Shown one piece after another: positions 29,200 through 50,198 of a stretch of DNA of 64,000 bases; positions within the stretch are counted from its first letter, which is position 1, and each line of letters opens with the position of its first letter. The position numbers were made by a program, and so were the translations under genes. The notes beneath the pieces are model-generated. The model had not been told where the DNA came from, did no database searches, and saw only the letters and a program-made list of their open reading frames with translations. The DNA comes from Natronosalvus hydrolyticus (GTDB lineage Archaea; Halobacteriota; Halobacteria; Halobacteriales; Natrialbaceae): positions 310,001 through 374,000 of the forward strand of contig JAOPJZ010000002.1 of the NCBI GenBank assembly GCA_025517525.1, read 5' to 3'.

Positions 29200-30552
29200 A
29201 TGGACCGCGATTCCGTTACGCCAGACGTATCCAGGATTCCGGCCGAGCGTGCCGAGCGCTGGGTCTCACAACATCACGAATTTGCCGCACCAAGCACCTA
29301 CGTCTACGAGTTCGTCTGGGACGTCACCGAAGACGCCATCGGTCCGTTCTGTACCGACGTCGACGGCAACGTGTTGCTGGACTTTACCAGCCACGTCGCC
29401 GCCGCTCCACTGGGGTACAACAACCCAACGATTCGGGAGCGAATGGACGCCTTCGACCTTCCCGAACCGTCGAAAATCGCCGGCCAAGATTTCTACGCCA
29501 GCGGTGGCGGTACCCCAGACAACACCGACTTCCCTGGTCCCACACAGTTGATGGATCGACTCACCGATGCGACGAGTCACTACGATATGGATACCGTCTT
29601 TCTGTCGAACACTGGCGCCGAAGCCGTCGAAAACGCGATTAAAATCTGTTACACCAACGGTGGACACCGGGGAGTGACGTTCGACGGCGGTTTCCACGGG
29701 CGGACCCTCGGAGCGCTCTCGTTGAACCGATCGAAAGCCGTTCACCGGCGTGGCTTCCCCGAAATCCCGGGTATCGTGAGCGTTCCGTACTGTACTTGCA
29801 CCGACGAGTGTACCTGCGGGTGGGAAACCGACGGCCCAGGTGGCAACGTGCTCGCCGATAGACTCCATCCCGAACGTGGCGACCTCCCCGCCGACGAAGT
29901 CTCGTACATCATCCTCGAGCCAGTTCAAGGGGAAGGCGGTTTCAGAGCGCCTTCGCCGTCGTTCGCCGCAGATATCGAGAAGATTCGACACGAACACGAC
30001 ATCTCCGTTATTAGCGACGAAATTCAGGCTGGCATCGGCCGAACCGGCGAGTTCTGGGGAATCGATCACACGCCCATCGAACCCGACGTAATCACCTGCG
30101 CGAAGGGGCTTCGTGTCGGTGCGACCGTAGCCAACGAGGACGTTTTCCCAGACGTGGAAGGCCGACTCTCCTCGACATGGGGGGCAGGTGACTTGCTCTC
30201 TTCCCTCCAGGGAACGCTCACCCTCGAGATCATCGAAGAAGAAAAACTGCTTGCTAACGCCACCACTCGAGGCAGACACCTGATCGAAGCTCTCGAGGAC
30301 GCCACCTTGCCAGGCAGTGTCGATGTCCGTGGACGGGGATTGATGGTCGCCGTCGAGTTCGATACCAAAGCGCGCCGTGAAGCGATCGTGCAGGCCGCAC
30401 TGGAGCGGGGACTCTTGTTGCTCGGTTGTGGCTACAAGACGATCCGATTCCTCCCGCCGCTCGACGTGACTGCTCGAGAGATCGACCTCGCGGTCTCACT
30501 GTTCGAAGAAGCGACTCGAGGGGTCGAAAGCCCGATGCAAACTGCAGACTGA
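29200..30552 (+). CDS. Class III (GABA/ornithine-type) PLP aminotransferase
   Basis: A 450-residue fold-type I PLP enzyme. SNTGAEAVENAIKI (136-149) binds the cofactor phosphate, FDGGFHGRTLGALSL lies at 161-175, and SDEIQAGIGRTG has Asp273 for the pyridine nitrogen. The Schiff-base lysine is Lys302 in CAKGLRVGA. The family transfers amino groups from omega-amino acids such as GABA, ornithine or acetylornithine, usually to 2-oxoglutarate. A Cys-rich insertion has C198, C200, C204 and C206 and is unusual for the general family; a structural metal is possible. The frame opens at 29167, but MDRDSV at 29200 is the more usual length. It lies beside glutamate dehydrogenase, fitting nitrogen collection on glutamate. 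Confidence 0.85.
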   Translation: MDRDSVTPDVSRIPAERAERWVSQHHEFAAPSTYVYEFVWDVTEDAIGPFCTDVDGNVLLDFTSHVAAAPLGYNNPTIRERMDAFDLPEPSKIAGQDFYASGGGTPDNTDFPGPTQLMDRLTDATSHYDMDTVFLSNTGAEAVENAIKICYTNGGHRGVTFDGGFHGRTLGALSLNRSKAVHRRGFPEIPGIVSVPYCTCTDECTCGWETDGPGGNVLADRLHPERGDLPADEVSYIILEPVQGEGGFRAPSPSFAADIEKIRHEHDISVISDEIQAGIGRTGEFWGIDHTPIEPDVITCAKGLRVGATVANEDVFPDVEGRLSSTWGAGDLLSSLQGTLTLEIIEEEKLLANATTRGRHLIEALEDATLPGSVDVRGRGLMVAVEFDTKARREAIVQAALERGLLLLGCGYKTIRFLPPLDVTAREIDLAVSLFEEATRGVESPMQTAD

Positions 30553-30788
30553 CCCTTTCGAGGGTCGTATCGTGAGCAAATTACACAACTAATTTCGGTC
30601 CGAGTCTGGTGATTTTGATGGCTGAATCGTTGAGTGAACGCCGGTTGGACCAATTTAGCTCATAGACGGGACTGGAGAGCAACTGAGTATTGTCCACCCG
30701 GACAGTACCGACTGGTTGGAGCAAGCAAAAATTAGGACCGGTCAGGGAGTTCCGAGGAACCGTTTTGTCTGCGAATGGAGTAGCGACA

Positions 30789-32084
30789 TCAGGGCCACAG
30801 GCCGCGCAGATCTTTTGCCTCCGCCACTCTCGAGAGCGCAACGACGTAGGTGGCGTCCCGCCAGGTCAACTCGCGTTCGTCGCGTTCGCGGGCAACCTGT
30901 TCCCAGGCGTCGACCATCTCGTCTTCGAGCGTCTCACGAACGCGCTCGAGCGGCCACGATCGGCGATTGATGTGCTGGAGCCATTCGAAGTAACTGACGG
31001 TAACGCCGCCCGCGTTTGCGAGGATGTCGGGAATCACGGGGAGATTTCGCTGGTCGAAAATTTCGGCTGCCCCGGTCGTCGTCGGCCCGTTGGCCCCTTC
31101 GACGATAAGCGAGGCGGACACATCAGCGGCGTTCTCTCGAGTGAGCACGTTCCCGACGGCGGCCGGAATCAACACGTCGACGTCGAGCTCGAGAAGTTCT
31201 GCGTTCGGCATGATTTCTCCGCCATCGTACGCTGTAACCGCTCCAGGTTGCTCATCGTACGTCGGGATGTCCATCGTCTGGAGTCCAGACGGATCGTAGA
31301 TGGCACCGTTGACGTCGCTGACGGCTACGATGTTAGCGCCCCAGGAGTCGAGGAGGCGAGCGGCATTGGCACCGACACTACCGTAGCCCTGAACGGCCAC
31401 CGAAAGCTCATCCATCGGCATGTCGTAGTATGCCGCTGCCTCTCGAGCGATGATAGCCACGCCACGGCCAGGCGCTTCTTCCCGGCCCGGACAGCCACCG
31501 ATTGCGGTGGGTTTCCCGGTGACGACGCCAGGAATCGTCTCGCCTTCTTGCATGCTGCAGGCGTCCATCAACCAGGCCATCGTCTGTTCGTCCGTGCCCA
31601 TATCGGGTGCCGGAATATCTTTCGTCGGACCGATTGCACCCTGCAACGATTCGGCAAAGCGTCTGGTGAGGCGTTCGCGTTCTTTCTCAGTCAATTCGTC
31701 CGGGTCGACGACGATGCCGCCTTTGGCACCACCAAACGGCAGATCCATCACCGCACACTTCCAGGTCATCCACATCGAGAGAGCAATGCACTCGTCTTCG
31801 GTAACGCCTGGTGCGTAACGTATACCGCCCTTGTAAGGCCCACGGACGTCATCGTGTTGCGCACGATATCCCGTGAACACCTCGGTCTGTCCGTCATCCC
31901 GTTCGACTGGCAGACTGACGCGATACACCGTCGTCGGATGTTTGAGCCGTTCGAACATCCCCTGGTCGACGTCGAGCAGTTCAGCGGCTCGCTCGAGTTG
32001 ATCGACGGCCATTTCCACCGGCGAGTGATCCTCGTTCGATTCGCTATTCGTCGATTCCGTCGTTTCTGGTGGCGTTGTAGTCAT
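30789..32084 (-). CDS. gdhB: Glutamate dehydrogenase
   Basis: A 431-residue cytoplasmic enzyme interconverting glutamate with 2-oxoglutarate and ammonium. The substrate site reads [12 protein letters not shown] (83-94) with lysines 109 and 121 ([18 protein letters not shown]). The Rossmann motif [10 protein letters not shown] lies at about 233-242. The frame extends upstream to 32165, but MTTTPPE at 32084 gives the normal haloarchaeal length, and the upstream codons belong to another gene. It starts one base after the stop of a 37-residue zinc-ribbon gene, so the two are cotranscribed. Coenzyme preference is not readable here. Confidence 0.92.
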
Positions 32085-32085
32085 C

Positions 32086-32199
32086 TCAATCAGCAGGGTA
32101 CTGTTCGACCCAGTCACACTGGGCGCAGTGAAAGCGGCTATCCGTCGGCTTTCCCGAGCCGCCACAAAGCGGGCAGCGTTCGCGCGTGTCTCGAGCCAT
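32086..32199 (-). CDS. 37-residue CPxCG-type zinc-ribbon microprotein
   Basis: [16 protein letters not shown] opens the peptide. A second pair, FHCAQCDW, follows after 14 residues, giving a four-Cys zinc ribbon. The frame ends TGA one base before the glutamate dehydrogenase ATG. An ATG at 32202 directly before would add one Met. Such CPxCG microproteins are common in haloarchaea and some affect stress, swarming or biofilm phenotypes. This one's role is unknown; the coupling suggests a function or coregulation with glutamate metabolism. Confidence 0.72.
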
Positions 32200-32456: not shown

Positions 32457-34880
32457 TCAGAGGGTGTCCGAGTGGCTCGAGTCGGCGTTCGTCGGCTCCG
32501 CAAATTCGAACACCTCACCTGTGTCTGACTTGTCGGTGGGTGTATTCGGGGCCAACTCATCGTTTGGACGCTGGCTCTCTCCCTCGAGGTCGATGTTTGT
32601 CTCGAACCGGTCTAACGCACTCGAAAGTTCGCTCGCCTGTGTCGTCAGTTCACTGGCACTGCCCGAAACTTCCGTCAGGGCAGTCGTTTGTTCTTCGGCG
32701 GCCGCCGCAACGTTTTCGCTTTCCGCGGTGGTTTGCTGTGAAATCGTCACCACCTCTTCGACCATCGCGACGACCTCCTGCGTCGAGGCGGCCTGCTGTT
32801 GACTCGCTGCCGAAATCTCTTGAACGCCGGTATTCGTCTCCGCCGCATAGCCGGCAATCTCCTCGAGTGCGTCGACAGCCTGGCGCACCGAATCGGTGTG
32901 CTCGGTGACGCGCTGGCTCGTTAGCTGGACTTCGGTGGCCGTGTGTTCGGTCTGTTCGTGAATACGCTCGAGGCGAGCCTCGATGTCTTCGGCAGCGTCT
33001 TTCGTCTCTGCGGCGAGTGCTTTGACCTCACTGGCAACGACCGAAAAGCCCGCATCATCGGCATCCGTCCTCGAGGCCTCGATGTTGGCGTTGAGCGCGA
33101 GCATATTGGTTTGTTCTGCGACCTGGGTGATGAACTCCGTGAGCTCGTCGATCTGTGCCATCTCCGCTTCGAGCGCTTCGATGGCGTCGACGGCATCCGC
33201 GGACTCGTCTTCGATTTCGTTCATCCCGTCGATAGCAACCTGCGCGGCTTCTCGCCCGCGTTCTCCTGCATCCGCCGTTCGCTCGGCGATATCGGCTACC
33301 TGATTCGAGGAGGCCGCGATCTGTTCGGTCGTCGTCGAGAGACTACTCATCTCCGCGGTAACCGACTGCAATCGGTCGTTCTGGCGGTCCGCCCCGTCGG
33401 AGATCTGTTGTACCGATTCGGTCACCTGTTCGCTCGCCGAGCGAACCTCTTCGCTCGAGGCTGTCACCTGCTCGCTGGCCGTCGCGACCTCTTCGGCGAA
33501 GGCTTTGACCGCCGCCGTCGTCGACTCGAGGTCACACACCATGTCGTTGAACTCGGTTGCAATCGCGCACATCGCCTCGTTCTCGCTATCGACGGCCATT
33601 CGAGCGGTGAGATCACCATCGGCACACGCTTGCATCACCTCGCTGTACTCATCGGCTTTTGACTCGAGGTGTCGATTCATCGCTTCGGTTTGCTCCCGTG
33701 CGATTTCTGCCTCATCGCGAGCGTTTTCGGCAACCTGAATCTGGGTGCGTAACTGGGATTGCATCGAATCGAACCCATCGTACAACTGCCCGATATTGTC
33801 GATTCGCGGGTTGTCGAACTCGACGTCGAGATCGCCGTCTTCCATCTGTTTCGCTTTCGCAGTCAGTCGGTCGATCGCCGTCGCCGTGTTACGACCGAGC
33901 ACCATACCACCGATGGCAATGACGAACACGCCGAATCCGGTCGCATACAGGCCGTACTTGGTGACTGTCTCCACGAAGCCGTAGGCTTCGGACGTCGGTG
34001 TATGGACCAGTACCACCCAGTCGGTGTGTTCCGATTGAGCGGAGCCGACGACGTATGGCGACGTCGGATACGAATACCCCGGCGAAGCGAGTGCGCCCGA
34101 TGGGTCGGCGTCGAGTTGACTCGAACCCCGATCGTCGGTGCGAGCAGCCTCGAGCGTCGACGCCGGTTCGTACGCGGCGTGGAAGGCACCCGATTCGCTG
34201 AAACCGACGTCATCCATCACCACTCGGTCGCTGTCGTCGACGGCGAACGTGAGTTGTGTATCGGTCCCTGCGCTCTCGAACTGATTCGCGTAACTCGAGA
34301 GCGTGGCCGTGTAGATAATGACGCGATCGGGTTGGTCACCGACGAGTTGCACAAATGCCAGTACCGGTTCCTCGGAGTCGTCAGTCGTGTCGACGTAGCT
34401 GTCGGAGAGGTGTACCCTGTCGGCGTCGAGATCGGATCGAATCCAGTTTTCCCCATCCGGAACGTTGAGGTCAGCAAGTTCAGTCCCAACGGTTTCTTCG
34501 TTAGTACTTGCCGTCACTTGGTTTCGATTGAGATCCACGTAGTGAACGTGATGTGTTCCTTCCGGAAGATCATCGTGCCAGTTTTGCAGATATCGATCGA
34601 TTGCCTCGTTGTCGCGGTCCTGGACGACGGCCGACTGAGAGATCATCCGCGTCGTCCACTCGTTGCGTTCGATCCAAGCATCGAGCTTTTCAGCCTCCTG
34701 CTGAGCGCCAGTCGCCGCCTCCTCGTTTGCGTTTTCGGTAACCTCGCTTTCGATCTGTGCCGTTCCCGCGATACCGACGAGGCCGATTGCGAGGCCAATT
34801 ACCAACAGGACGATACCAAATTTGAGTGCGTAGCTACGCCGAATAGCTTTCGGCACCAACTGTCGCAACGTGCCAACCAT
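32457..34880 (-). CDS. Halobacterial transducer (methyl-accepting chemotaxis protein) in the amino-acid island
   Basis: A 807-residue receptor of the same architecture as the one at 3107-5473. Membrane helix 1 spans 19-41, an extracellular Cache-like sensor about 45-300, helix 2 308-330, then HAMP, a second HAMP-like segment and the methyl-accepting coiled coil. Its tip EQTNMLALNANIEASR lies near residue 600. The sensor half is clearly diverged from the first transducer while the signalling half is similar. The ATG at 34880 is preferred over the GTG at 34886 on TATA spacing. It sits between glutamate dehydrogenase and the ureohydrolase, so an amino-acid or arginine-containing ligand is an attractive guess. 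The sequence does not prove it. Confidence 0.92.
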   Translation of the reverse strand: MVGTLRQLVPKAIRRSYALKFGIVLLVIGLAIGLVGIAGTAQIESEVTENANEEAATGAQQEAEKLDAWIERNEWTTRMISQSAVVQDRDNEAIDRYLQNWHDDLPEGTHHVHYVDLNRNQVTASTNEETVGTELADLNVPDGENWIRSDLDADRVHLSDSYVDTTDDSEEPVLAFVQLVGDQPDRVIIYTATLSSYANQFESAGTDTQLTFAVDDSDRVVMDDVGFSESGAFHAAYEPASTLEAARTDDRGSSQLDADPSGALASPGYSYPTSPYVVGSAQSEHTDWVVLVHTPTSEAYGFVETVTKYGLYATGFGVFVIAIGGMVLGRNTATAIDRLTAKAKQMEDGDLDVEFDNPRIDNIGQLYDGFDSMQSQLRTQIQVAENARDEAEIAREQTEAMNRHLESKADEYSEVMQACADGDLTARMAVDSENEAMCAIATEFNDMVCDLESTTAAVKAFAEEVATASEQVTASSEEVRSASEQVTESVQQISDGADRQNDRLQSVTAEMSSLSTTTEQIAASSNQVADIAERTADAGERGREAAQVAIDGMNEIEDESADAVDAIEALEAEMAQIDELTEFITQVAEQTNMLALNANIEASRTDADDAGFSVVASEVKALAAETKDAAEDIEARLERIHEQTEHTATEVQLTSQRVTEHTDSVRQAVDALEEIAGYAAETNTGVQEISAASQQQAASTQEVVAMVEEVVTISQQTTAESENVAAAAEEQTTALTEVSGSASELTTQASELSSALDRFETNIDLEGESQRPNDELAPNTPTDKSDTGEVFEFAEPTNADSSHSDTL

Positions 34881-34904
34881 GCTCACTGTCTGGGAGCGTG
34901 ATGG

Positions 34905-35090: not shown

Positions 35091-36113
35091 TTAGACCGTG
35101 AAACGACGCTCGAGGAGCGTTATCAGCAAGAACGCGCCAAACTGCGCGGTTCGACCGGTTGGGTCGAACGAGGGTGCGACTTCCATCAGATCGGCGCCGC
35201 CGACAGCGTCGTACTCGCCGAGGATTTGCATCGTCTCGAGTGCCTGGGCAGCCGTGAGTCCGTCGGGACATGGCGTCCCGGTACCCGGGGCCACCGACGG
35301 GTCGATGGAATCGATGTCGAAGGTGACGTACACTGCATCGGTGTCTTCAGCGGCGGCCTCGACGGCATCGCGAACGACCGGCCCGATACCCCGTTCGTGG
35401 ACGTCAGCCATCGTAAACAGGTTCAGTCCCGTGTCCTCGACGAACTCCATGAAGCCGGGGCGTTCGTAGCCACGAATCCCGACCTGGCTGATGTGCTCGT
35501 AGTCGGAGTAGGTCGATTCTGCGATGTGTCGGGTACACGCGCCGTGATAGTGCGAATCGAAGAGGTCACTCTCTCCTGTCGTGTCCGTGTGTGCATCTAT
35601 CTGGACCAGACCAACGGTATCGTGCCCTGCGCCCTGGGCAAATCCACAGAACGCCGGGTACGTACACGAGTGGTCGCCCCCAAGGAGGAGCGGAAACGCC
35701 TGTTCGGAGACCGTCGCGAGATGGGCCTCGATCGCTTCTCGAGTCGTGGCCTCGTCGGCGGGAAACACCGGGATATCTCCGCAGTCGACGGTAGTGAGTT
35801 TGTCGTAGTCGGCGACTTCGCCGGTATACATGTTCGTCAGCCCGCCTTTGAAACTCGAGAGATATCCCCACCAGCTACTCGCTTCCCTGATCGCTTCGGG
35901 TCCGTAGCGAGCGCCCGGTCGATTGCTCACTTTGTGATCGTACGGCACGCCGAGAACACCGACGTCTGCTTCCTCGAGCGCATCGACGGGTCGATACTCG
36001 CCTTTGAGAAATGTGTTCAGCCCTGCATATGGGAGTTCGAGCGACGAACCGGCCGTCTGTGCCCGGAACTGGGCAGCATTGGTTGCTGGGGGAAGATGAC
36101 TTCCAGACATCAC
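35091..36113 (-). CDS. Ureohydrolase (agmatinase/guanidinobutyrase family)
   Basis: A 340-residue Mn-dependent enzyme that removes urea from a guanidino compound. The metal ligands are all present: His148 (GGDHS), Asp173, His175 and Asp177 (DAHTD), and Asp266 and Asp268 (DIDSIDP). HYHGACTRH (189-197) takes the place of the HGTPFR segment usual in agmatinases, so the substrate may be agmatine, 4-guanidinobutyrate or a related compound rather than arginine itself. It is divergent from the first cyanophycinase gene, whose polymer is half arginine. A GABA-type aminotransferase nearby would suit the guanidinobutyrate route. Family call firm, substrate open. Confidence 0.88.
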   Translation of the reverse strand: MMSGSHLPPATNAAQFRAQTAGSSLELPYAGLNTFLKGEYRPVDALEEADVGVLGVPYDHKVSNRPGARYGPEAIREASSWWGYLSSFKGGLTNMYTGEVADYDKLTTVDCGDIPVFPADEATTREAIEAHLATVSEQAFPLLLGGDHSCTYPAFCGFAQGAGHDTVGLVQIDAHTDTTGESDLFDSHYHGACTRHIAESTYSDYEHISQVGIRGYERPGFMEFVEDTGLNLFTMADVHERGIGPVVRDAVEAAAEDTDAVYVTFDIDSIDPSVAPGTGTPCPDGLTAAQALETMQILGEYDAVGGADLMEVAPSFDPTGRTAQFGAFLLITLLERRFTV

Positions 36114-36236
36114 CGTAACTGCACGGTCCAGCAGTAATAATTCTTCCCCTATACGTACCGATTGAACGAATCGGCAACAACGGCACAGACCACTCGAGTT
36201 TATCTCTCCTCGTTAATGTTTATATCTTGTACACTC

Positions 36237-37655
36237 ATGACACGGTATGAACTGCCAGATGTTGACAGAAGAACATTCGTGAAAACAACCGGGGCGGGAG
36301 CTATCGGCATGGCCGGTCTTTCCACGTCGAGTGCTGCAGACGCAGGGGCACAGACGCAGAGTGAAGGCGATTCGAACGGCGGAATAACGCCGCCTCCGGG
36401 CCCGGTAGTCCCAGTCGGGGGTGGCTTCGAACCGGAGAACGAAGCCCTCTACGTCGAGTTGCTCGAACTCGTCGGTAACGAACCGACGGTTGCGATAGTC
36501 CCGACAGCAAACAGCGACCCCGAAAACAGCATCGAAGTGATGTCCATCGATTTCCTCGAGTATGGCGAACAGTTGTACGGTGAAGGAGCCGTCACGATAG
36601 AGGAGATCGAAGTTGCACCCGCAGGCCCAGACGAATGGGAGGGCAACGAAGATGATCCGGATGTCGCCGAACAGATAGAAAACGCCGATCTCGTCTGGTT
36701 TTCCGGTGGGAATCAGCTCCGCATTACGGAAACGTTCTTCGACGACGATGGCGAGGAAGTCGCCGTCGCAACTGCGATACGCGAACACGTCGAAAACGGC
36801 GGTGCCGTCGCGGGTTCGAGTGCGGGTGCGGCGATCATGACTGACCCGATGATCGGCGCCGGCCAGAGCACGGGGTCGTTGCTCGATGGCGTCAGTTATG
36901 AAGATACGTACTACGACGACGATGACAACCGCGTGTATCTCACGAGAGGACTTGGCTATCTCGGCCACGGGATCGCCGACCAGCACTTTTACGAACGCGG
37001 GCGGTTCGGTCGACTCCTGCGAGCGCTGTGGCACGAAGGCGAAGAACTCGGCTATGGCGTCGGCGAAAACACGGGTCTGATATTCGAAGCAAACGAGCCA
37101 CACACACGTGTGTCCGGTGAAAACGGTGTCATGGTCATCGATCTCTCGGAGGCCCAGGAAGTGGAGAACGACAGTGAAGCTCTCGAACTCGAGGATGTGC
37201 GCGTTCACCACCTCTCAGACGGTGACGTGTTCGATTACGAAAGTCGGACCGTCGATCCGAACGATACGGACAAATTCGATGTCACGGATAATCCGTTTTA
37301 CACGACCAATCAGGACTCCTGGGACGTGTTCGGCTCACCACAGGCCGTCAAAGACCTCGTCACCGAAGAACTCGCGGTCAATGAACAAGCGAGCGTTCGC
37401 GGGACGGCCATCTCCGTCGAAGCCGAAGGAGACTACGAGCGCCGGACGGAAGTACGACTCCTGTTTTCGCAGGACGAGCGCACCGAAGGGTGGGAAGGTG
37501 AGTACGAAGTGCAAGAGATGGATTGGCGATACACGGCCATCGACGTCCATCTGGACGTCGAAATTGGGACCTTCGCACTGATCGACGATCACATCGACAC
37601 CGAGACGCTACGGGACGTGATTTCTGCCTGGCAAACCGGGGAACCCCTGAGCTAA
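36237..37655 (+). CDS. cphB: Secreted cyanophycinase (family S51), copy 1
   Basis: A 472-residue exported serine hydrolase. A Tat signal is visible, with DRRTFVKTTGAG (10-21) and a likely cleavage near residue 35. The S51 cyanophycinase landmarks are all present: PVGGGFEPENEALY (59-72), FSGGNQLRITE (155-165), and the nucleophile Ser195 in AGSSAGAAIM. DQHFYERGRFGRLLRAL has His250, and GYGVGENTG follows. The enzyme cuts multi-Arg-poly-Asp (cyanophycin) to beta-Asp-Arg dipeptides. The C-terminal 140 residues are extra to the core. The ATG at 36237 puts the Tat motif near the N-terminus; the upstream ATG at 36162 would bury it. It is followed 28 bp later by a PGF-CTERM protein gene, probably one transcript. 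S51 also contains other peptidases, but the DQHF-RGR motif favours cyanophycinase. Confidence 0.85.
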   Translation: MTRYELPDVDRRTFVKTTGAGAIGMAGLSTSSAADAGAQTQSEGDSNGGITPPPGPVVPVGGGFEPENEALYVELLELVGNEPTVAIVPTANSDPENSIEVMSIDFLEYGEQLYGEGAVTIEEIEVAPAGPDEWEGNEDDPDVAEQIENADLVWFSGGNQLRITETFFDDDGEEVAVATAIREHVENGGAVAGSSAGAAIMTDPMIGAGQSTGSLLDGVSYEDTYYDDDDNRVYLTRGLGYLGHGIADQHFYERGRFGRLLRALWHEGEELGYGVGENTGLIFEANEPHTRVSGENGVMVIDLSEAQEVENDSEALELEDVRVHHLSDGDVFDYESRTVDPNDTDKFDVTDNPFYTTNQDSWDVFGSPQAVKDLVTEELAVNEQASVRGTAISVEAEGDYERRTEVRLLFSQDERTEGWEGEYEVQEMDWRYTAIDVHLDVEIGTFALIDDHIDTETLRDVISAWQTGEPLS

Positions 37656-37683
37656 TGCTCTGCAATCGAACCGACACTCAGTC

Positions 37684-41309: not shown

Positions 41310-42653
41310 TTATTCGTCGAACGGCCACTCTCCCGACGCCTTCATGCCTTCGGCTTCACCTGACTCGAGCAATCCCGTTTTGATCGTCTCCTCGGATGCT
41401 GGCTCGAGTGAATCCGCGTCGCCAGTGAGTTCGAAGGCGATGTTCGTGACGCAAATAGCGATGTCACGGACGTCCCGCATATCGAGTTTTTCGAGCGTGT
41501 CTCCGTGGGTGTGTCCCCACCCGCGACCGGAATCGTCGGTTACCGAACGCAGTTGTGCGCCGGGGAGCCCCCGTTCGACGAACGGCCAGTGGTCGCTGTG
41601 TGGGGAGAACTCATCACGGACGTCAATCGGGCACTCGAGAACGTTTGCAGTCCGTTCGGCAGCCCTAGCGATCGTTTCGAATCCGTGGGTGATGACTGCC
41701 AGATTCCGCGATTGCCCCGCACTATCGATGTTGAGGACCCCCGCAATGGAGTCGAGGTCGGTGGTTTCGGCGTAGTGACGCGAACCGAGCAACCCGACTT
41801 CTTCAGCACCGAAGATGAGCAGACGGACGCGCGTCTCGAGGTGTGGTTCGACAGCAGCCAGCAGGCGGCCGACTTCGGCGACGAGGGCACAGCCAGCGCC
41901 GTTGTCCTGGGCACCCGTCGCGATGTCGTGAGCGTCGAGGTGTGCCGTGATCAGGAGTTCGCGGTCGGTGTCTGGCCCGAGGACGCCGGTGACATTTCTC
42001 GACTCGGCCCCTCCCGTTTCACAGTCGACGGTGAGCGTCGCGTCGCTTTCTTCGCGTGCGCAGTAGCGCTCGAGTTGGGCACCGACCTCTTTCGAGACGC
42101 CGACACCTGGGATGGCCGCGGGACCGTCGAGTTCGTTGATGCTGCCAGTCGGTGGGAGACAGCCCCCGACGTGGTTGCGGAAGACGAACCCGGCCGCACC
42201 AGCCTCGACGGCGTAGCCGTACTTTTCGATTCGGTGTCGCCATCGGTCGGCCGTGGGTGAACTCGCACTCGAGACCAGCGCGATGTTGTCCTCGAGGGGA
42301 GCGTCATCGAAATCCGCAGGCATACCGTACCCCACATCGACCAGCCTACCGGAAACAGTTCCCGCAGGCGACCCCGGCAGCGCAAGAATCTCGTGTTGGT
42401 GTTCGTACACTCGTACGCGTGAGGTGACCGACAGAGACGAGGAACCTCGCCACCAGCCGGGAATTTCGAACGGTTCCGTGGTAACGTCGCGACAGCCGAT
42501 TGCCGAAAACGTTTCCGCGAGGGTTTTGGCCGCCTCGTGTTCACCTGACCATCCAGCCATTCGCGGTGCACACTCGACGAGCGCCTCGAGCACGGTCGCT
42601 GGGTGGTCAGTAGTGTAGGCGTCGCCGATGACAGCATCTGGTAGCGTAGGCAT
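41310..42653 (-). CDS. M28-family metallopeptidase with inserted PA domain
   Basis: A 447-residue zinc aminopeptidase-type enzyme without a signal peptide. A PA-like insertion (about 90-205, with AGAAGFVFRNHVGG) is followed by the M28 core with its metal ligands: His238 (TAHLDAHD), Asp250 (GAQDNGAG), Glu284/285 (FGAEEVGLLGS), Asp310 (NIDSAG) and His383 (GHTHGD). M28 enzymes release N-terminal residues from peptides. In this setting a beta-Asp-Arg dipeptidase role is attractive, but no motif proves it. The frame extends upstream to 42752, and the ATG at 42653 fits the family N-terminus. It is divergent from the second transporter operon and convergent with cyanophycinase copy 2. Confidence 0.88.
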   Translation of the reverse strand: MPTLPDAVIGDAYTTDHPATVLEALVECAPRMAGWSGEHEAAKTLAETFSAIGCRDVTTEPFEIPGWWRGSSSLSVTSRVRVYEHQHEILALPGSPAGTVSGRLVDVGYGMPADFDDAPLEDNIALVSSASSPTADRWRHRIEKYGYAVEAGAAGFVFRNHVGGCLPPTGSINELDGPAAIPGVGVSKEVGAQLERYCAREESDATLTVDCETGGAESRNVTGVLGPDTDRELLITAHLDAHDIATGAQDNGAGCALVAEVGRLLAAVEPHLETRVRLLIFGAEEVGLLGSRHYAETTDLDSIAGVLNIDSAGQSRNLAVITHGFETIARAAERTANVLECPIDVRDEFSPHSDHWPFVERGLPGAQLRSVTDDSGRGWGHTHGDTLEKLDMRDVRDIAICVTNIAFELTGDADSLEPASEETIKTGLLESGEAEGMKASGEWPFDE

Positions 42654-42774: not shown

Positions 42775-42798
42775 TAAAGGACCATGCGTTAATCACAC

Positions 42799-44547
42799 AT
42801 GGCGATAGATAACGATGTGAACCGACGGCAGTTCCTGCGAGCTTCCGGTGCCGGGGCCGCAGTGGGTGCAACGATGTTGGCTGGTTGTATGGGTGGGGGC
42901 GATGATGATGGAAACGGTGGCAACGGTGGAAATGGCGGCGATGACGACATCACCGTTGACGACGATGACCAGACGACTTCCGAAGCCGAGGATATCGAAC
43001 GCGGCGGAACGCTCGTCGTCGGCCTCAGTCAGGACCCACGAACGTTGAATCCACACCTTGGGGACGACTCCGGGACCTCAGCGATTGCCGACCAGATCGC
43101 GAACCGACTCGTTCGAACCGACCAGACCGGGGAAATCATCCCTGACCTGGCACGTGACTGGCAAGTCAACGACGAACTCACCGAATACACGTTCCAGTTA
43201 CACGAAGGCGTCCAGTTCCACGGTGACTACGGCGAGGCTGACGCCGAAGCGGTCGTCGACAACTTCCACAAAATTATCCTGGACGAGGAGTACGGCGCGT
43301 TCGCCGCCTCCGATTACGAGGGAACGCTGTTTACCGTCGACGACGACGGAAATATCCAGGACCATCCTGAAGACACGGTTTACGCCAGCGGTGACTACGA
43401 AGTCACCTTCGACATGCTCGAGGCCGATGCCTCGTTCCTCTTTGCCCTGGCCGACTACCGCTCGAGCATCCTGCCCGTCGACGCGATCGACGAACACGGC
43501 GACGACTTCGGTTCGACGAGTGAGGGGACCTGGGCGACAGGTGCATTCCAGTTCGTCGAAGGTCAGGACAACAGTCACTATGAACTCGAGGCGAATCCCG
43601 ACTACTTTAAAGAGACCGACGCGGGCCAGCTCCCCTATCTCGACGGCGTTCGCTACGAGATTATCGTCGAATCCAGCGTCCGCAACACGCAGGTTCAGAC
43701 CGGCGAAATCCACCTCGACCACCAGGTCACAGCCTCGGACGTCGACGGACTGCAGGACGCCGACGACGTCGAAGTCCGGACCCGTGCGGGTACCGACCAG
43801 TCGAACCTCTACGTCAATACGCGAAACTTCGAACCGTTTACTGACGTTCGCGTTCGCCAGGCACTGTCTCATGCAGTCAATCGGGAGGCAATCGTCGAAG
43901 TCCAGTGGGACGGCCTCGCCGAACCCGCGTACAACATCTTCCCCGAGTGGCACTGGGCGTACGACGAAGACGCCGTCACTCGCTACGAGCACGACGTCGA
44001 ACGCGCTCAGGAACTGCTCGACGAAGCCGGCCACAGCAACCTCGAGTTCACCGCGCGCGTGACCAACGAGTCGCAGTTTACGGATCACGCGACGATTCTC
44101 CAGCAGAACCTCGCACAGGCTGGAATCGACATGAACATCGAAACTATGGAGAAATGGACGGCCTGGGGGCCGTTCCTGCCGGATTCCTGGGACAACGACC
44201 CCGTCGGACCGCCTGAAGACGACCACGCGCTCGTCGAATCCATCGGCTATGGGTTCGACGCCGACATGTACGCGTACCTCACCTACTACACGGGCGAGTT
44301 CTTCAACTCCTCGTTCTACAGCGACGAACAGGTCGACGAGTGGCTCGACGAAACCCGCCGTGTAGCCGACCAGGAACGGCGTGAAGAACTCTACTCGAAC
44401 GTTCAGGAGCAAGTCACCGAGGAGATTCCACAGATCTACACCATCTGGCAAAACCGCACGCACGCCATCCGAGAGGAGGTCAACGACTACATCCTACGAC
44501 CGAACGGGATGCCCGCCTTCGAAGAGATCTGGCTCACGCAGGAATAA
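42799..44547 (+). CDS. Family 5 (Opp/Dpp) solute-binding Tat lipoprotein, second cluster
   Basis: A 582-residue surface lipoprotein. The Tat signal NRRQFLRASGAG (8-19) ends in a lipobox with Cys32 (AGCMGGG), followed by a Gly/Asn/Asp linker. The family 5 domain includes GGTLVVGLSQDPRTLNPHLG and the signature region FTDVRVRQALSHAVNREAIVE near 350-370. It delivers a peptide-like ligand to the permeases encoded next. The ligand is likely a short peptide; beta-Asp-Arg dipeptide from the cyanophycinases is the working inference. A gap of 121 bp with a further TATA-like box precedes the permease genes. Confidence 0.92.
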   Translation: MAIDNDVNRRQFLRASGAGAAVGATMLAGCMGGGDDDGNGGNGGNGGDDDITVDDDDQTTSEAEDIERGGTLVVGLSQDPRTLNPHLGDDSGTSAIADQIANRLVRTDQTGEIIPDLARDWQVNDELTEYTFQLHEGVQFHGDYGEADAEAVVDNFHKIILDEEYGAFAASDYEGTLFTVDDDGNIQDHPEDTVYASGDYEVTFDMLEADASFLFALADYRSSILPVDAIDEHGDDFGSTSEGTWATGAFQFVEGQDNSHYELEANPDYFKETDAGQLPYLDGVRYEIIVESSVRNTQVQTGEIHLDHQVTASDVDGLQDADDVEVRTRAGTDQSNLYVNTRNFEPFTDVRVRQALSHAVNREAIVEVQWDGLAEPAYNIFPEWHWAYDEDAVTRYEHDVERAQELLDEAGHSNLEFTARVTNESQFTDHATILQQNLAQAGIDMNIETMEKWTAWGPFLPDSWDNDPVGPPEDDHALVESIGYGFDADMYAYLTYYTGEFFNSSFYSDEQVDEWLDETRRVADQERREELYSNVQEQVTEEIPQIYTIWQNRTHAIREEVNDYILRPNGMPAFEEIWLTQE

Positions 44548-44632
44548 CGTCTCCACCACACACTCGAGGGTCAGCGACGACAGACCCGGTGGCGAACCTG
44601 CTTCGCAAGAGTAAAGACCCATTACGGGCACA

Positions 44633-44642
44633 TTTTAACATA
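44633..44642 (+). promoter_or_regulatory. TATA-like box before the OppB-like gene, second cluster
   Basis: TTTTAACATA is centred about 31 nt before the ATG at 44669. The permease-ATPase genes could therefore be transcribed separately from the binding protein. Confidence 0.4.
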
Positions 44643-44668
44643 TCAAACAAACGTGATAGAATATACAC

Positions 44669-45640
44669 ATGGGATTAGGTAACTACGTACTCAAACGACT
44701 CCTCCTGTTGATACCGGTACTTTTGGGAGTGTCCGTCATCGTATTTTTATTGATGAAAATCACCCCAGGTGATCCAGTGACGACGCTCTTGCCGCCGGAA
44801 GCGCGGTCGCCGGAGAATATTCGTCGACTGGAACAACGTCTCGGTGTCGGGGATCCGCTTTATATCCAGTACCTGAGCTGGCTCGAGAACGCGATTCAGG
44901 GGGACCTGGGGCAATCGTACAGCACGCGTGAACCCGTCGTCCGGATGATCGCCATCTCGATCTGGCCAACGGTCCAGTTGGCAATCGTCGCGTTGGCCGT
45001 CGCGACACTCATCGCGATCCCAATGGGCGTCCTGGGTGCCGTATACAAAGACACCTGGGTCGACCACATTGGTCGCGTCTTTGCATTCCTCGGCATCAGC
45101 ATGCCGTCATTCTGGCTGGGCATCATGGTGATACTCATATTTTCGCTGTTCTGGCGCGGATGGTTCGGCTTCCAGTTGATTCCCTCTGGCGGGTACGCAG
45201 GCCCCTCGGACGGGATGGTCACCTGGATGCGACACGTCCTCCCGCCGGGAATCACGCTCGGTGTCGGCTACGCAGCGCTCACCGCCAGACTCACTCGCTC
45301 GTCGATGGTCGAGGTACTCAACGAGGAGTTCGTCGAGACCGCTCGAGCGAAAGGGGTCAAAGAGAAGTCAGTCATCATGATCCACACGTTCCGGAACTCG
45401 CTGATTCCAGTCGTCACCGTGATGGGGCTACAGATCGGATTTCTGATGAACGGCGCTATCGTCGTCGAGCAGGTGTTCCAGTGGCCCGGAATCGGGCTGT
45501 TGCTCTACGACGCCGTTATTTCAACTGACATTCCATTACTGCAAGGAGTCGTATTATTCGTCGCTGTCGTGTTCGTCGTTTCGAACCTCGTCGTCGACGT
45601 ACTGTATGCGTATCTAGACCCACGAATCAAATATGAGTAG
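44669..45640 (+). CDS. oppB: Opp/Dpp-type ABC permease (OppB-like), second cluster
   Basis: A 323-residue permease with six membrane helices, the first at 10-32. It has the OppB region GDLGQSYSTREPV near 77-89 and the EAA loop EFVETARAKGVKEKSVIMIH near 223-242. It ends DPRIKYE, the standard terminus. It is followed 35 bp later by the OppC-like gene. Together the two form the channel for the ligand captured by the 42799-44547 lipoprotein. Confidence 0.92.
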   Translation: MGLGNYVLKRLLLLIPVLLGVSVIVFLLMKITPGDPVTTLLPPEARSPENIRRLEQRLGVGDPLYIQYLSWLENAIQGDLGQSYSTREPVVRMIAISIWPTVQLAIVALAVATLIAIPMGVLGAVYKDTWVDHIGRVFAFLGISMPSFWLGIMVILIFSLFWRGWFGFQLIPSGGYAGPSDGMVTWMRHVLPPGITLGVGYAALTARLTRSSMVEVLNEEFVETARAKGVKEKSVIMIHTFRNSLIPVVTVMGLQIGFLMNGAIVVEQVFQWPGIGLLLYDAVISTDIPLLQGVVLFVAVVFVVSNLVVDVLYAYLDPRIKYE

Positions 45641-45675
45641 AGAGATACTAATCGAGACAACGGGGGTGTTCGCTC

Positions 45676-46587
45676 GTGTCGAGTGAAACACAAATTTACG
45701 AACAACCCTCCATCGGGGAACGGCTCTACCAACGGTGGGACTGGGCTACGTCTGTGTACGGACGGCTCGACCTATCAGCTAAGGTGTCGTTCTGGATCGT
45801 CCTGGCACTGGTCGTCATCGCAATCCTTGCACCCGAGATTGCGCCGTACGAACCGGCACAGGAACACTACGACCGGTCACTCGTCGGTCCCTCACTCCAG
45901 CATCCGCTAGGAACCGACCTCACGGGCCGAGACATCCTTTCGCGGATGATTTACGGAGCCCGTATCTCGCTGTTCGTCGGCATCTCTGCCGTCACCATCG
46001 CGATGGCGATCGGTATCCCGATCGGCTCGATCGCCGGTTACGTCGGCGGCTGGACTGACGAAGTCCTCATGCGAGCGATGGACATCCTCATCTCGTTCCC
46101 GGCGCTCGTCATCGCACTCGCGCTGGTCGGCACCCTCGGAGCGAGTTTACAGAACGTTATTCTCGTTATCGGAGTAGTGTACTCACCGCAGTATGCCCGA
46201 CTCATACGCGGGGAGGTGCTCTCTGTCAAAGAAGAGGAGTATGTCGAGGCAGCCAGAAACACCGGGCTCAGCAACACCAAAATCGTCACCAAGCACGTCA
46301 TTCCGAACTCGATGGCACCCGTGCTCGTGCAGGCCACGTTCCACGTCGCGACGGCGATTCTCTTCGAGGCTTCGCTCTCGTTCCTGGGCCTCGGTATTCA
46401 GCCACCCACGGCCACCTGGGGGGTTATGATCGCCGATGGTCGGAACTATCTGCCCAGTGAGTGGTGGATTTCGACGTTCCCCGGTATCGCCATCATGATC
46501 GTCGTGCTCGCGTTCAACCTGCTTGGCGACGGGCTACGAGACGAGTTCGACCCACGTGATGAGACCCAAGGAGGGCCAAATACATGA
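45676..46587 (+). CDS. oppC: Opp/Dpp-type ABC permease (OppC-like), second cluster
   Basis: A 303-residue permease starting at GTG, with an N-terminal cytoplasmic segment of about 38 residues and six membrane helices. HPLGTDLTGRDILSRMIYGA (76-95) is the OppC signature. The EAA loop EYVEAARNTGLSNTKIVTKH lies near 193-212. Its TGA overlaps the ATG of the next gene (ATGA), so the two are translationally coupled. Much shorter in its N-terminus than the OppC of the first cluster. Confidence 0.92.
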   Translation: MSSETQIYEQPSIGERLYQRWDWATSVYGRLDLSAKVSFWIVLALVVIAILAPEIAPYEPAQEHYDRSLVGPSLQHPLGTDLTGRDILSRMIYGARISLFVGISAVTIAMAIGIPIGSIAGYVGGWTDEVLMRAMDILISFPALVIALALVGTLGASLQNVILVIGVVYSPQYARLIRGEVLSVKEEEYVEAARNTGLSNTKIVTKHVIPNSMAPVLVQATFHVATAILFEASLSFLGLGIQPPTATWGVMIADGRNYLPSEWWISTFPGIAIMIVVLAFNLLGDGLRDEFDPRDETQGGPNT

Positions 46588-47687
46588 GCAGCGAGAACAA
46601 CGATCAGTCAATGACGAATCGAACCCGGGCGGAGGCAGGCTCGAGAGCCGATATGGGCAAACACGGCCGATACAGCACGCCACCTGAGGAAGGAGAGACG
46701 TCGTTGTTTGCCGACCCGGACGAGCCACTGCTCGCGGTTCGAGACGTGAGAACGTACTTCGATACGGACGAGGGGACAGTTAAAGCATCCGACGGCGTCT
46801 CATTCGATATTCAACCCGGAGAGATCGTCGGCCTCGTCGGTGAATCCGGCTGTGGCAAAAGCGTCACCAGTCGGTCGCTAATGCGGTTGATCCAGTCACC
46901 GGGGTACAATCCCAGTGGCAAACTCAACTTCGATGGTCTCGATCTGATGGACCTTTCGAAGGAGGAAATCCGACAGGTTCGAGGCAACCGCATCTCGATG
47001 ATTTTCCAGGAACCGATGTCCGCCCTGAACCCGGTGTTCGACATTGGTTGGCAGGTGGGTGAACCGCTTCGCGTCCACGAGGGGCTCAAAAAGAAAGCCG
47101 CCCGTGAGGAGGCAGTCGAACTGATGCGTAAAGTTGGGATTCCGAGTCCCGAAGAGCGCGTCGACGACTACCCACACCAGTTCTCCGGCGGAATGCGCCA
47201 GCGTGCGATGATCTCGATGGCGCTCGCGTGTAAGCCGGACCTGTTGATTGCCGACGAACCGACGACGTCCCTCGACGTGACGATCGAAGCACAGATTCTG
47301 GAACTGATCCAGGAACTCAACGAAAGGCAAGACATGGCCGTCCTGATCGTGACCCACGACCTCGGCGTCGTCGCCGAAACCTGCGACAAAGTCGCCGTCA
47401 TGTACGCCGGCCGGATCGTCGAGTACGCGGACGTCGAGACGATCTTTGCCGATCCGCGACACCCCTATACCAAAGGGTTGCTCAACTGCATCCCGGATCC
47501 CCGAAGTGACGACCAGGACCTCTCACCCATCGAGGGACAGGTCCCGGACCTCGCCGACCCACCGGAGGGATGTAACTTCGCCGATCGGTGCCCGTACGCG
47601 ACGCCAGAGTGTGAGACGACAGACCCACGACTCCGCGAAGTAGACGACAACCACCTCAGTGCCTGTATCTGGGAGGATCCACAATGA
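46584..47687 (+). CDS. oppD: Opp/Dpp-type ABC importer ATPase (OppD-like), second cluster
   Basis: A 367-residue ATPase. An acidic N-terminal tail of about 45 residues precedes Walker [12 protein letters not shown]. The signature is [15 protein letters not shown], Walker [14 protein letters not shown], and the H-loop IVTHDLGVV. The Cys-containing Opp motif is [15 protein letters not shown] near 330. It is coupled by 4 bp overlaps on both sides. It works with the OppF-like ATPase on the permease pair. Confidence 0.93.
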
Positions 47688-49057
47688 GCAGCGATGCACT
47701 CTTCGAACTCGAGAACGTCAGCAAGCACTTCATCGATAACGATACGCTGTTGAACAAACTGCATCCCAACCGGAGCCACACGAGCGTTCGGGCAGTCGAT
47801 GGAGTTAGCCTCACCGTCCACGACGGTGAAATCCTCGGTCTGGTCGGTGAATCCGGCTGTGGAAAGAGTACGCTCTCCCGAGTCGCCCTGCGCTTGCTCG
47901 AGCCCACCGGCGGGGACGTCTACTACAAAGACGAAAATATCACCGAACTGGGCAGCCGACAGCTAACGGAGTTCCGGAGCGAGGCACAGATGATATTCCA
48001 GGACCCGTTCGCCTCGCTGAACCCACGCTACACTGTCGCAAAGACGCTCACCGAGCCGATGCACGTTCACGGTATCGGGGATTCGAAGGCAGAGCGGCGT
48101 GCAAAGGCAGCAGACCTCATCGAACGCGTCGGCCTGAGCGCTCAGTTTCTGGATCGGAGTCCACACGAGTTCTCCGGCGGGCAGCGCCAGCGGATTTCGA
48201 TCGGTCGCGCACTGGCAGTAGAACCCCAGCTCGTGATCGCCGACGAACCGGTGTCGGCGCTCGACGTGAGCGTGCAGGCACAGATTTTGAACCTGCTCGA
48301 CGGACTCCAGGAGGAGATGGGACTCTCGATGTTGTTCATTTCCCACGACCTGAGTGTCGTCCGCCGAATCTGTGATCGAGTCGCCGTCATGTACCTCGGA
48401 GAAATCGTCGAGGTGGCACCGACGAAAGAGCTCTTCAGAAACCCGAAACACCCATACACGCAGGCGCTTCTCTCGAGCGTTCCGATTCCGGACCCAACGG
48501 TCGAACGAGAGGCGATCAAGTTGGTCGGTGACGTGCCGACGCCGATCGATCCGCCCAGTGGCTGTCGATTCCACCCACGCTGTCCGAAGGTGATTCCGCC
48601 GGAGGACTGGACCGGGTCACACGGCGCATGGCGGGCGCTCTTGCAGTTCAAAACGCGTCTGAAAGACGAGGAGGTCGAACCGAAAGCCGTCCGGGAACAG
48701 CTCGAGGCCAAACAGGGCTCTGTGAGCCACGACGACGTCGCGAAGGCTATCTATCGCGATAACATCCTCGAAAGCGAAGTGGCAGATGACGACACCAGTT
48801 TGCCTGACGAGGTCGACACCGCCGTTACCGATGCGATCGATGCCTTGCTCCACGGGGATCGAAAGCGAGCTGTCGGCCACCTCGAGGCCTACGAGAGCGT
48901 CTGTGAAACTCGCGAGCCGGCAGAAGTCGAGCGGTCGGCAACCGCGCGAGTGGCCTGCCACCTCGAAGACGATCAGGTGACCGTTCCGACCGCGGGAACC
49001 CCCGGGACGGCGAAAGACGAAGTCGCCATGGGGGCAGCCAGTGAAACCCATGACTGA
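47684..49057 (+). CDS. oppF: Opp/Dpp-type ABC importer ATPase (OppF-like) with long C-terminal extension
   Basis: A 457-residue ATPase, about 100 residues longer than the first cluster's OppF. Walker A is [11 protein letters not shown], the signature [15 protein letters not shown], Walker [14 protein letters not shown], and the H-loop FISHDLSVV. After the Opp motif [14 protein letters not shown] (near 290) comes a helical acidic extension to the end, without a recognised fold. It may regulate the ATPase or bind a partner such as the next gene's product, with which it overlaps by 8 bp. Similar tails occur in other haloarchaeal OppF proteins, so it may be a lineage trait. Confidence 0.92.
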
Positions 49058-50198
49058 CCCAGCACACGACGGCGGCCAGTCGAATGGCGACGAGAGTGAT
49101 GACGACATCGAGCCGGGAACTGGCGTCGCCGATAGCCTCTATCCGCTATTGTTTCGCGGCCTCGAAGCCGTCATCGGCCTCGGCGATGGCGAGACGTTTG
49201 CCGACGACGAGTCGAAGCAGGCACTTGAGGACGTTTACACCGACTCGGTCGCCCCCGATGAGCGAAAGGCGTTCGAAGACGCACTGGGGACCGAGACGAA
49301 TCCGGATCTGGTGCGGTCGGTGCTCGAGACCGTCCAATCGGCGCTCGAAGCAAAGAAGGCGACCATCACACTCGATCATCGAACGGTGCTCTCGCTGCCG
49401 ACCCGAGAAGCTTGTCTTTACTCCGTGCTGACCAATCCAACGCGGGACACCGCAACCGGTGTCGAGGAACTGGTAACTGACCGGGTTCGGGCAGCCATCG
49501 AACGTGGCCTCGAGGATGCACTCGATAGCGAGTACGAGTCGGCCGCAGCCCACTTCGAGGCGGCCCGTGAGGCCACGGTTGGGATGCCCACTTCGGACCC
49601 AGACGTCGACGACGCCGTGGTTTCCAGGGTGCTCGCCGCATGGGCGCACTTCCATCGCGGGGAGTCAGACCGCGCACTCGAGCGCGTCGCCGGTGCGTTA
49701 CAGTACGACGAAGATGCCTGGTCGCCGCGAATTATCGGCGTCGCAGCGAACCATCCGGAAAGCCAGGGCTTCCTCGAGGGACGACTCGGCGTTCGACTGT
49801 GCGTTCGGCACACGATCGAACAGCCATCGGGTTCCACAGTCGACGAAGCGTTCGGCTGTGTGCGAACTGAAGACGGGACCCTCGGCCTCGATGAACGGAG
49901 GGACTCTTCACTGGAGTCGGACGAGAACGCCGAAGACCGCCAGACTCCACCGCTTCACGGCCGCGACGACGTCGACTGGCTCAATCTCGAGAACCCGAGC
50001 GTTCTCTCCGAGGTTACGAGTGACACCATCGTCCGGCTTCGTCTGCAGGGGAACGCCACCGGCTTCCCGACCGTCCACGGCTACTACGTCGGCTTCGGTA
50101 TCGCCGACTTCGAACAAGGCGCAGTCACGGATATCATCGAACTCGTGCTCAGTGGCCCGGTCACAGCCACCGTAGACGAACGACTCGAGCTAGCCTGA
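49050..50198 (+). CDS. Uncharacterised acidic protein, last gene of the second opp operon
   Basis: A 382-residue soluble protein without signal or membrane segment. Residues 20-150 are helical. A TPR-like stretch of paired helices lies near 155-230 (SAAAHFEAAREATVG and VLAAWAHFHRGESDRALERVAGAL). The C-terminal 90 residues are beta-rich (SDTIVRLRLQGNATGFP onward). I do not recognise a family. The ATG at 49050 overlaps the OppF stop by 8 bp; a GTG at 49041 is an alternative. Tight coupling to the transporter implies an accessory role. Candidates are an ATPase partner or a ligand-processing factor. Confidence 0.75.
   Translation: MTDPAHDGGQSNGDESDDDIEPGTGVADSLYPLLFRGLEAVIGLGDGETFADDESKQALEDVYTDSVAPDERKAFEDALGTETNPDLVRSVLETVQSALEAKKATITLDHRTVLSLPTREACLYSVLTNPTRDTATGVEELVTDRVRAAIERGLEDALDSEYESAAAHFEAAREATVGMPTSDPDVDDAVVSRVLAAWAHFHRGESDRALERVAGALQYDEDAWSPRIIGVAANHPESQGFLEGRLGVRLCVRHTIEQPSGSTVDEAFGCVRTEDGTLGLDERRDSSLESDENAEDRQTPPLHGRDDVDWLNLENPSVLSEVTSDTIVRLRLQGNATGFPTVHGYYVGFGIADFEQGAVTDIIELVLSGPVTATVDERLELA

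Follow-up and report, generated by a model that had tools for sequence, protein, structure and literature searches.

We analysed a window of 64,000 nucleotides (bases 310001-374000 of contig C12, which has 552,768 bases) from Natronosalvus hydrolyticus, a haloarchaeon whose 4.54 Mb genome is assembled in 67 contigs and 99%-complete. Two genes for exported cyanophycinases of peptidase family S51 were found beside a gene for an M28 peptidase and the genes of an Opp-type importer, and this group is probably a haloarchaeal cyanophycin-scavenging locus in which the polymer is cut outside the cell and the products are taken up by this Opp. Genes were called by Pfam and NCBIfam profile searches (Table 1), and the genes named in an earlier first-pass annotation of the window, among them a complete Opp-type importer, were present where it had placed them.

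In the mechanism that we propose, the two exported S51 enzymes would cut cyanophycin released by cyanobacteria into beta-Asp-Arg dipeptides extracellularly, and the adjacent Opp, fed by its lipoprotein, would import these dipeptides. Inside the cell, the dipeptides would be split by the cytoplasmic M28 peptidase or by an IaaA-like enzyme encoded elsewhere in the genome, and the ureohydrolase, the class III aminotransferase and the glutamate dehydrogenase GdhB could route arginine via ornithine and glutamate to ammonium. Our confidence in each of the intracellular steps is lower than in cutting and import, and the extended intracellular pathway is offered as plausible chemistry.

Exported enzymes of the cyanophycinase family

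Both S51 proteins score over the cut-off (126.6 bits) of TIGR02069, the curated cyanophycinase equivalog, and they match solved cyanophycinases with 64 and 59 bits. The catalytic Ser/His/Glu of CphB and its pocket residues Gln101, Asp172, Gln173, Arg178, Arg180 and Arg183, as given in the available part of PMC3235067, were placed on the haloarchaeal sequences through alignment to 3en0. The triad and all the listed pocket residues are retained in both enzymes of the window, and eight positions (Q185, S220, D273, H275, R279, R281, R284 and E302) are invariant in all five aligned haloarchaeal cyanophycinases. The glutamine equivalent to CphB Gln173 is kept in the Natronosalvus enzymes (DQHF) and is replaced by threonine in the enzyme of Haloferax elongans (DTHF). 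The same source describes CphE of Pseudomonas alcaligenes DIP1, which resembles the window enzymes as an exported serine-type S51 protein with a Ser/His/Glu triad and a Gln-Asp-Arg-Arg-Arg pocket; CphE has threonine at the Gln173 position, as H. elongans does, and its leader is of the Sec type whereas the Natronosalvus leaders are of the twin-arginine (Tat) type (PMC3235067).

Leaders were detected by a simple motif and hydropathy scan, which found twin-arginine leaders in cyanophycinase 1 (DRRTFV) and cyanophycinase 2 (SRRHLL) and a hydrophobic, Sec-type leader in the H. elongans enzyme. With the family cut-off passed and the residues intact, two proteins of the cyanophycinase family with Tat-type leaders are thus present as previously annotated, for enzyme 1 on condition that translation starts at ATG 36237. 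Its open reading frame (ORF) opens upstream at a TTG. The start annotated in Natronosalvus amylolyticus, the sister genome from the same genus, is 24 codons later than the ATG and would remove the leader, but the leader is almost letter-for-letter identical between N. hydrolyticus and N. amylolyticus. Cyanophycinase 2 carries an additional C-terminal domain of ~93 amino acids that resembles the C-terminus of the GH81 protein in the same window (50% identity, 96 columns), and we read this as a domain shared by secreted enzymes.

An AlphaFold model of cyanophycinase 1 from five sequences is poor, with a mean predicted local distance difference test score (pLDDT) of 42.9. Its best Foldseek matches were 7uqv and 7uqw, with identities in the alignments of this low-confidence model of 27% to 7uqv and 24% to 7uqw, the CphB of PCC6803. 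In the cyanophycinase tree the haloarchaeal rows group together (91/96) and apart from the bacterial rows; with six open branches among the 12 inner ones, and with long branches meeting, the tree points to no donor of the gene.

No cyanophycin synthetase (CphA) was recognised anywhere in the genome, where the best match reached 43.8 bits while the cut-off is 850, and what had been claimed for the window therefore extends to the whole genome. Together with the export-type leaders this points to scavenging rather than recycling, the direction favoured in the first-pass annotation and further supported by the intact active sites and by a distant haloarchaeon with a similar neighbourhood.

Recurrence of the cyanophycinase and importer genes in haloarchaea

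Three overlapping genome samples were searched, namely 392 genomes of the order, 15 genomes of the genus of H. elongans and 246 genomes from across the phylum. Proteins over the TIGR02069 cut-off were found in three of the 392 order genomes, those of N. hydrolyticus, N. amylolyticus and H. elongans, which represent two lineages in two families. They were also found in one of the 15 genomes of the second sample (H. elongans) and in one of the 246 phylum-wide genomes (the window genome). When weaker S51 matches (E<=0.001) are included, the count rises to 22 of the 392 order genomes, and a peptide-pattern scan of the genome contigs returned one locus, that of H. elongans. By the title of a paper in a reference list, the H. 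elongans isolate came from microbial mats in Hamelin Pool, Shark Bay, and the accessible text of a 2025 paper reports cyanophycinase genes in Bacteroidota of the Guerrero Negro and Shark Bay mats (PMC12590107).

The gene order in H. elongans (NZ_AOLK01000019.1) is cyanophycinase, IclR regulator, M28, oppABCDF and a TPR-like ORF, with the cyanophycinase and M28 genes within 3 kb of each other. Identity to the window is 46% for M28, 46-71% for oppABCDF and 30% for the TPR-like ORF. When 35 window genes were searched against 60 kb around this cyanophycinase (E<=1e-10), an aldo/keto reductase (35%) was the one further gene that had its own match. In N. amylolyticus at least 36 kb are syntenic, from a CBS gene to a second opp set at the end of the fetched stretch, glucan-degradation genes included; this block lies on a 417-kb circular plasmid (NZ_CP101160.1). 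The whole 21 kb from the aminotransferase to the TPR-like ORF was rejected as one conserved unit, as the N. amylolyticus synteny singles out no gene and H. elongans keeps the cyanophycinase, M28, opp and TPR-like genes in addition to the reductase. The suggestion that the genes of this region travel together in other haloarchaea therefore held for M28 and opp, which accompany the cyanophycinase in H. elongans, and failed for the ureohydrolase, GdhB, the aminotransferase, the transducer and the PGF-CTERM-like protein, which N. amylolyticus retains just as members of its syntenic block. The pathway assembled in the first-pass annotation is supported in its extracellular cutting and import. Of its further genes, none except M28 and opp is independently associated with the cyanophycinase among the genomes searched.

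The OppA type of the window (E<=1e-100, with the best three candidates per genome scored) occurs in ten of the 392 genomes, including all three with a cyanophycinase. The hypergeometric p for this overlap is 1.2e-5, or 4.7e-4 with the two Natronosalvus genomes counted as one, in a test that ignores relatedness, and both values are somewhat too small as the OppA threshold was set after the H. elongans score was known and three neighbours (M28, OppA and the ureohydrolase) were searched. The cyanophycinase is rare, and its recurring association with this OppA type exceeds chance. The OppA tree places the Natronosalvus proteins with those of H. elongans and of genome G282 (92/93).

The inflated significance is one of several points that weigh against a scavenging locus. 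The closest solved relative of the enzyme is titled 'pseudo-CphB', so motif and fold do not prove action on cyanophycin. The five genes that failed to accompany the H. elongans cyanophycinase were not found in its 60 kb at E<=1e-10, and no ureohydrolase relative (E<=1e-60) was listed for that species. M28 relatives (E<=1e-60) occur in 327 of the 392 genomes, and in the M28 tree the Natronosalvus enzymes do not form a group with that of H. elongans. Genome G282 has IclR, M28, oppABCDF and the TPR-like ORF in the order seen in H. elongans with no cyanophycinase match. Further downstream in the proposed pathway, the ureohydrolase lies below the NCBIfam cut-offs for agmatinase (TIGR01230, 165.6 against 174.3 bits) and arginase (107.4 against 227.6) and also below that for hutG, and no urease was recognised in the genome, where the one match was partial (25.6 bits, in a frame of 469 amino acids on contig C23).

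The G282 cassette shows that the combination of M28 and opp is not cyanophycin-specific. Its IclR protein is 74% identical to that of H. elongans, and the OppA and M28 proteins of the two genomes group at 100/100. In total, seven genomes carry this opp type without a cyanophycinase over the cut-off, one of them (G058) with a 31.1-bit S51 match on another contig. Beside oppA in the ten loci, M28 was found in six, an S15/PepX-type hydrolase in three and neither in one. The cassette thus looks like a general module for peptide or amide uptake, which a cyanophycinase would have joined twice or from which it would have been lost elsewhere. Near the G282 cassette we also observed (L058:4092-6595) a GdhB relative (68% identity) and a gene of the M24 creatinase/prolidase type.

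These contexts bear on the alternative that we take most seriously, although we consider it unlikely, in which the cyanophycinases lie by accident beside a general region of peptide uptake and amino-acid catabolism on an accessory replicon. They may then still act on cyanophycin, with the other genes serving ordinary peptides and guanidino compounds. The existence of the cassette without cyanophycinase in G282 fits such an accident, as do the plasmid location of the N. amylolyticus block and the M28 or S15 hydrolase adjoining this oppA in nine of the ten loci. Ten of 13 other M28 relatives examined (11 of the 13 being the best-scoring ones outside Natronosalvus) have a second, different opp set within the same 20 kb, and the ureohydrolase type occurs in 80 of the 392 genomes (E<=1e-60), elsewhere next to an NrpR-like regulator (14 of 20 loci) or a symporter (nine of 20). 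On the other hand, all three cyanophycinase genomes carry the rare OppA type next door and do so in two families, while by hand arithmetic a random gene would fall within 3 kb of the 8.6-kb cassette in a 4-Mb genome ~0.4% of the time.

It is less likely still that the substrate of the S51 proteins, as cyanophycinase-like enzymes, is some other beta-linked or acidic peptide polymer. The title of the closest structure and the low identities to 7uqv and 7uqw would suit such a substrate, as would the separation of the haloarchaeal from the bacterial rows by long branches and open forks, but the proteins pass the equivalog cut-off and carry the residues defining the CphB pocket, and H. elongans has even the Gln-to-Thr swap of CphE. 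Recycling of the cell's own cyanophycin, for which one could cite that in genomes with both genes cyanophycinase usually clusters with cphA1 (PMC10206079, in the part available), is ruled out by the lack of a recognised synthetase and by leaders that put the enzymes outside the cell, barring a synthetase of another family or in an assembly gap.

Proposed import, dipeptide cleavage and nitrogen recovery

The importer of the proposed scavenging locus is complete, with a family 5 substrate-binding protein, two BPD permeases and two oligo_HPY ATPases (42799-49057). The same motif and hydropathy scan gave OppA a Tat-type leader followed by a lipobox. Opp systems are common in this genome, with 17 SBP_bac_5 proteins over the cut-off, so a nearby Opp alone means little. 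The closest solved relatives of OppA are by name binders of heme or AI-2, of opines or of peptides, among them AgaA, which we take to be an opine binder, and they say little about the ligand. Beta-Asp-Arg is the ligand that we infer for this importer. The TPR-like ORF follows oppF in eight of the ten loci of this opp type. Its model (pLDDT 79.6) consists of a helical TPR-like part and a beta part and has no Foldseek match at E<=0.001; structure comparison returned proteins that were for the most part of the TPR type, with Z reaching 13.3, a range common for helical repeats.

The M28 peptidase is probably cytoplasmic, as the leader scan found no export signal in either the Natronosalvus or the H. 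elongans lineage; its start at 42653 was taken from the N. amylolyticus annotation. By sequence its kin are aminopeptidases. Among the known enzymes for the second step, no IadA was found over the cut-off in the window genome (24.9 against 331 bits). The sole Asparaginase_2 match is a complete IaaA-family ORF of 305 amino acids (213 bits) on contig C22, away from the window; a stop flagged by the search in this gene does not interrupt the ORF. As neither iadA nor iaaA is found in the cluster itself, the presence of which marks a cyanophycin utilization locus, the region may be said to work like such a locus and is not filed as a member.

A bold but rather unlikely proposal is that the M28 protein, whose family is not known to act at this step, splits beta-Asp-Arg, and that this Opp type imports beta-aspartyl dipeptides. 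M28 is not among the families named for dipeptide splitting in the available part of Sharon & Schmeing 2023 (PMC10206079), where the dipeptidase of Firmicutes and Bacteroidota is described as undiscovered. The M28 enzyme may then be a further solution to the isoaspartyl dipeptidase missing in those phyla. In three genomes (L063:7780-9837, L064:5566-7554 and L060:11120-13093) we found an S15/PepX_C hydrolase beside oppA in place of M28, identified by Pfam at one locus and by tblastn at the other two. Cocaine esterase is presumably an S15 protein as well. A gene weakly similar to cocaine esterase and located beside cyanophycin genes is given as a dipeptidase candidate in PMC10206079.

On the arginine side, the GdhB assignment is firm. 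Arginase was rejected as a firm label for the ureohydrolase because of the cut-offs and because, among its solved relatives, 7esr ('agmatinase 2', which we take to be a guanidine hydrolase), proclavaminate amidinohydrolase and agmatinases rank above arginases. Twenty contexts of this ureohydrolase were fetched among the matches listed, outside the two cyanophycinase loci. The NrpR-domain regulator relative lies within 1.5 kb in the 14 loci noted above and the sodium:solute symporter within 1.7 kb in the nine (each partial in one locus; one representative of each was checked by Pfam). Neither was found in the window or in the 60 kb fetched from each of N. amylolyticus and H. elongans, so the window ureohydrolase is outside its usual setting. 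A regulator of the NrpR type, the nitrogen repressor family, beside the haloarchaeal ureohydrolase (e.g., L085:10487-11482) suggests nitrogen control, and in genome G297, which is placed in the genus of the window organism, it has a gene of the ornithine cyclodeaminase family ~3.6 kb away. These surroundings fit nitrogen recovery from a guanidino compound without singling out arginine.

The best solved relative of the class III aminotransferase, 7vno, is named a 454-amino-acid hypothetical 4-aminobutyrate aminotransferase and is presumably PH1423. The protein PH1423 of Pyrococcus horikoshii is described as an ornithine delta-aminotransferase in the accessible part of PMC9986279. With no recognised urease, urea may be lost. 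The partial urease match on contig C23 was discarded as a route for urea recovery, since a weak IadA match 1 kb away lies in a frame of equal length and the two are probably one amidohydrolase gene.

Two of the earlier labels hold in part. A CARDB protein does lie between the cyanophycinases, with the PGF-CTERM tail below the TIGR04126 cut-off (E 7.6e-5, cut-off 24.5 bits), and the supposed Cache transducer has HAMP and MCPsignal domains with no Cache family at E<=0.001, a threshold that a weak profile match could escape.

Known systems and neighbouring genes

The 'cyanophycin utilization locus' that Sharon & Schmeing 2023 cite from Ben Hania et al. is bacterial, and in 45 of 52 genomes with cyanophycinase and iaaA or iadA and no cphA1 the genes are clustered (PMC10206079, in the part available). 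The window resembles it in combining cyanophycinase genes with a transporter, in lacking cphA1 and in pointing to scavenging from the surroundings. It differs in being archaeal, with two Tat-type enzymes and a lipoprotein-fed Opp ABC importer, and in having no iadA or iaaA in the cluster and instead a cytoplasmic M28 peptidase and candidates for arginine catabolism. We place it on this basis as a putative variant of the bacterial locus. The second-step activity of IadA, IaaA and the M14-type cyanophycin dipeptide hydrolase discussed in the same text (PMC10206079) is needed here too, and the local candidate is M28.

A bacterial megaplasmid of Pseudoalteromonas shioyasakiensis (CP076682.1, 249432-266061) has, like the window, a cyanophycinase (559 amino acids) close to genes for an arginase-family enzyme and a substrate-binding protein. 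Its ureohydrolase is 35% identical over 203 amino acids to that of the window, and no cphA, opp set or M28 is annotated in the 16.6 kb viewed. It seems to be a scavenging locus that parallels the one in the window. For P. tunicata, the accessible text of PMC2536512 mentions a putative cyanophycinase that is secreted. The soda-lake Balneolaeota strain Omega, a heterotrophic satellite of cyanobacteria from an alkaline hypersaline habitat that was grown on cyanobacterial cells, likewise has two S51 peptidases discussed as cyanophycinases, and is bacterial unlike the window organism (PMC6243061, in the part available). Among 26 plasmid records with a cyanophycinase-like match, 11 were viewed (N. 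amylolyticus and ten others). Adjacent cphA was found in six of these ten, and an annotated M28 near the cyanophycinase in view in none.

The published survey of cyanophycin clusters covers bacterial genomes only, as far as the available text of PMC10206079 goes, and no description of a haloarchaeal cyanophycin locus was recognised in the open full-text literature, judged mostly from titles and the beginnings of abstracts. If the scavenging reading is true, archaea help to turn over a major cyanobacterial nitrogen reserve in soda lakes and hypersaline mats, and the transporter that they use for it, perhaps also the dipeptidase, differs from those known in bacteria. The prediction is cheap to test since both N. 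amylolyticus and H. elongans are cultured.

Table 1. Genes of the putative cyanophycin-scavenging region, in window positions.
Feature	Position	Strand	Profile or structure match
Class III aminotransferase	29167-30552	+	PF00202 255 bits; best solved relative 7vno 228 bits
Glutamate dehydrogenase GdhB	30789-32165	-	NF041398 733 bits, cut-off 620
Chemotaxis transducer, HAMP and MCP signalling	32457-34886	-	PF00672, PF00015
Agmatinase-family ureohydrolase	35091-36113	-	PF00491 252 bits
Exported cyanophycinase 1 (S51)	ORF 36162-37655, start taken ATG 36237	+	TIGR02069 145.7 bits
CARDB surface protein, PGF-CTERM-like tail	37684-39186	+	PF07705 35.4 bits; TIGR04126 22.3 bits
Exported cyanophycinase 2 (S51)	39508-41169	+	TIGR02069 136.0 bits; PDB 7uqv/3en0/7uqw matches
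M28 metallopeptidase with PA domain	41310-42653 (ORF to 42752)	-	PF04389 123.8 bits
oppA, substrate-binding lipoprotein	42799-44547	+	SBP_bac_5 PF00496 223.6 bits
oppB permease	44669-45640	+	PF00528
oppC permease	45676-46587	+	PF00528, PF12911
oppD ATPase	46584-47687	+	PF00005, PF08352
oppF ATPase	47684-49057	+	PF00005, PF08352
Unnamed TPR-like ORF, end of opp operon	49041-50198	+	no Pfam family at E<=0.001

The ureohydrolase and cyanophycinase 1 genes are arranged head to head, 126 bp apart when counted from their ATG starts; M28 and oppA are likewise divergent. The CARDB protein begins 28 bp past cyanophycinase 1, and the TPR-like ORF overlaps oppF by 17 bp.

Outside this region, cytochrome oxidase subunits I and II, an Mrp-type ATPase, NrfD and a DsrO-like ferredoxin are encoded at 53024-62075; no match to any of these genes was found within the fetched N. 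amylolyticus stretch. A second complete opp set of a different type lies on the other strand at 12129-18287, and its ATPases have 36-40% identity to the ATPases of the first set as encoded in N. amylolyticus. The window also holds two related transducers, the one at 3107-5473 having 47% identity to the protein that corresponds in N. amylolyticus to the transducer in Table 1, and a tandem pair of FG-GAP/ASPIC-UnbV proteins at 7153-10573. Finally, genes for GH81, a TrmB regulator and GH3, by family concerned with beta-glucan degradation, adjoin the region at 20260-26740.

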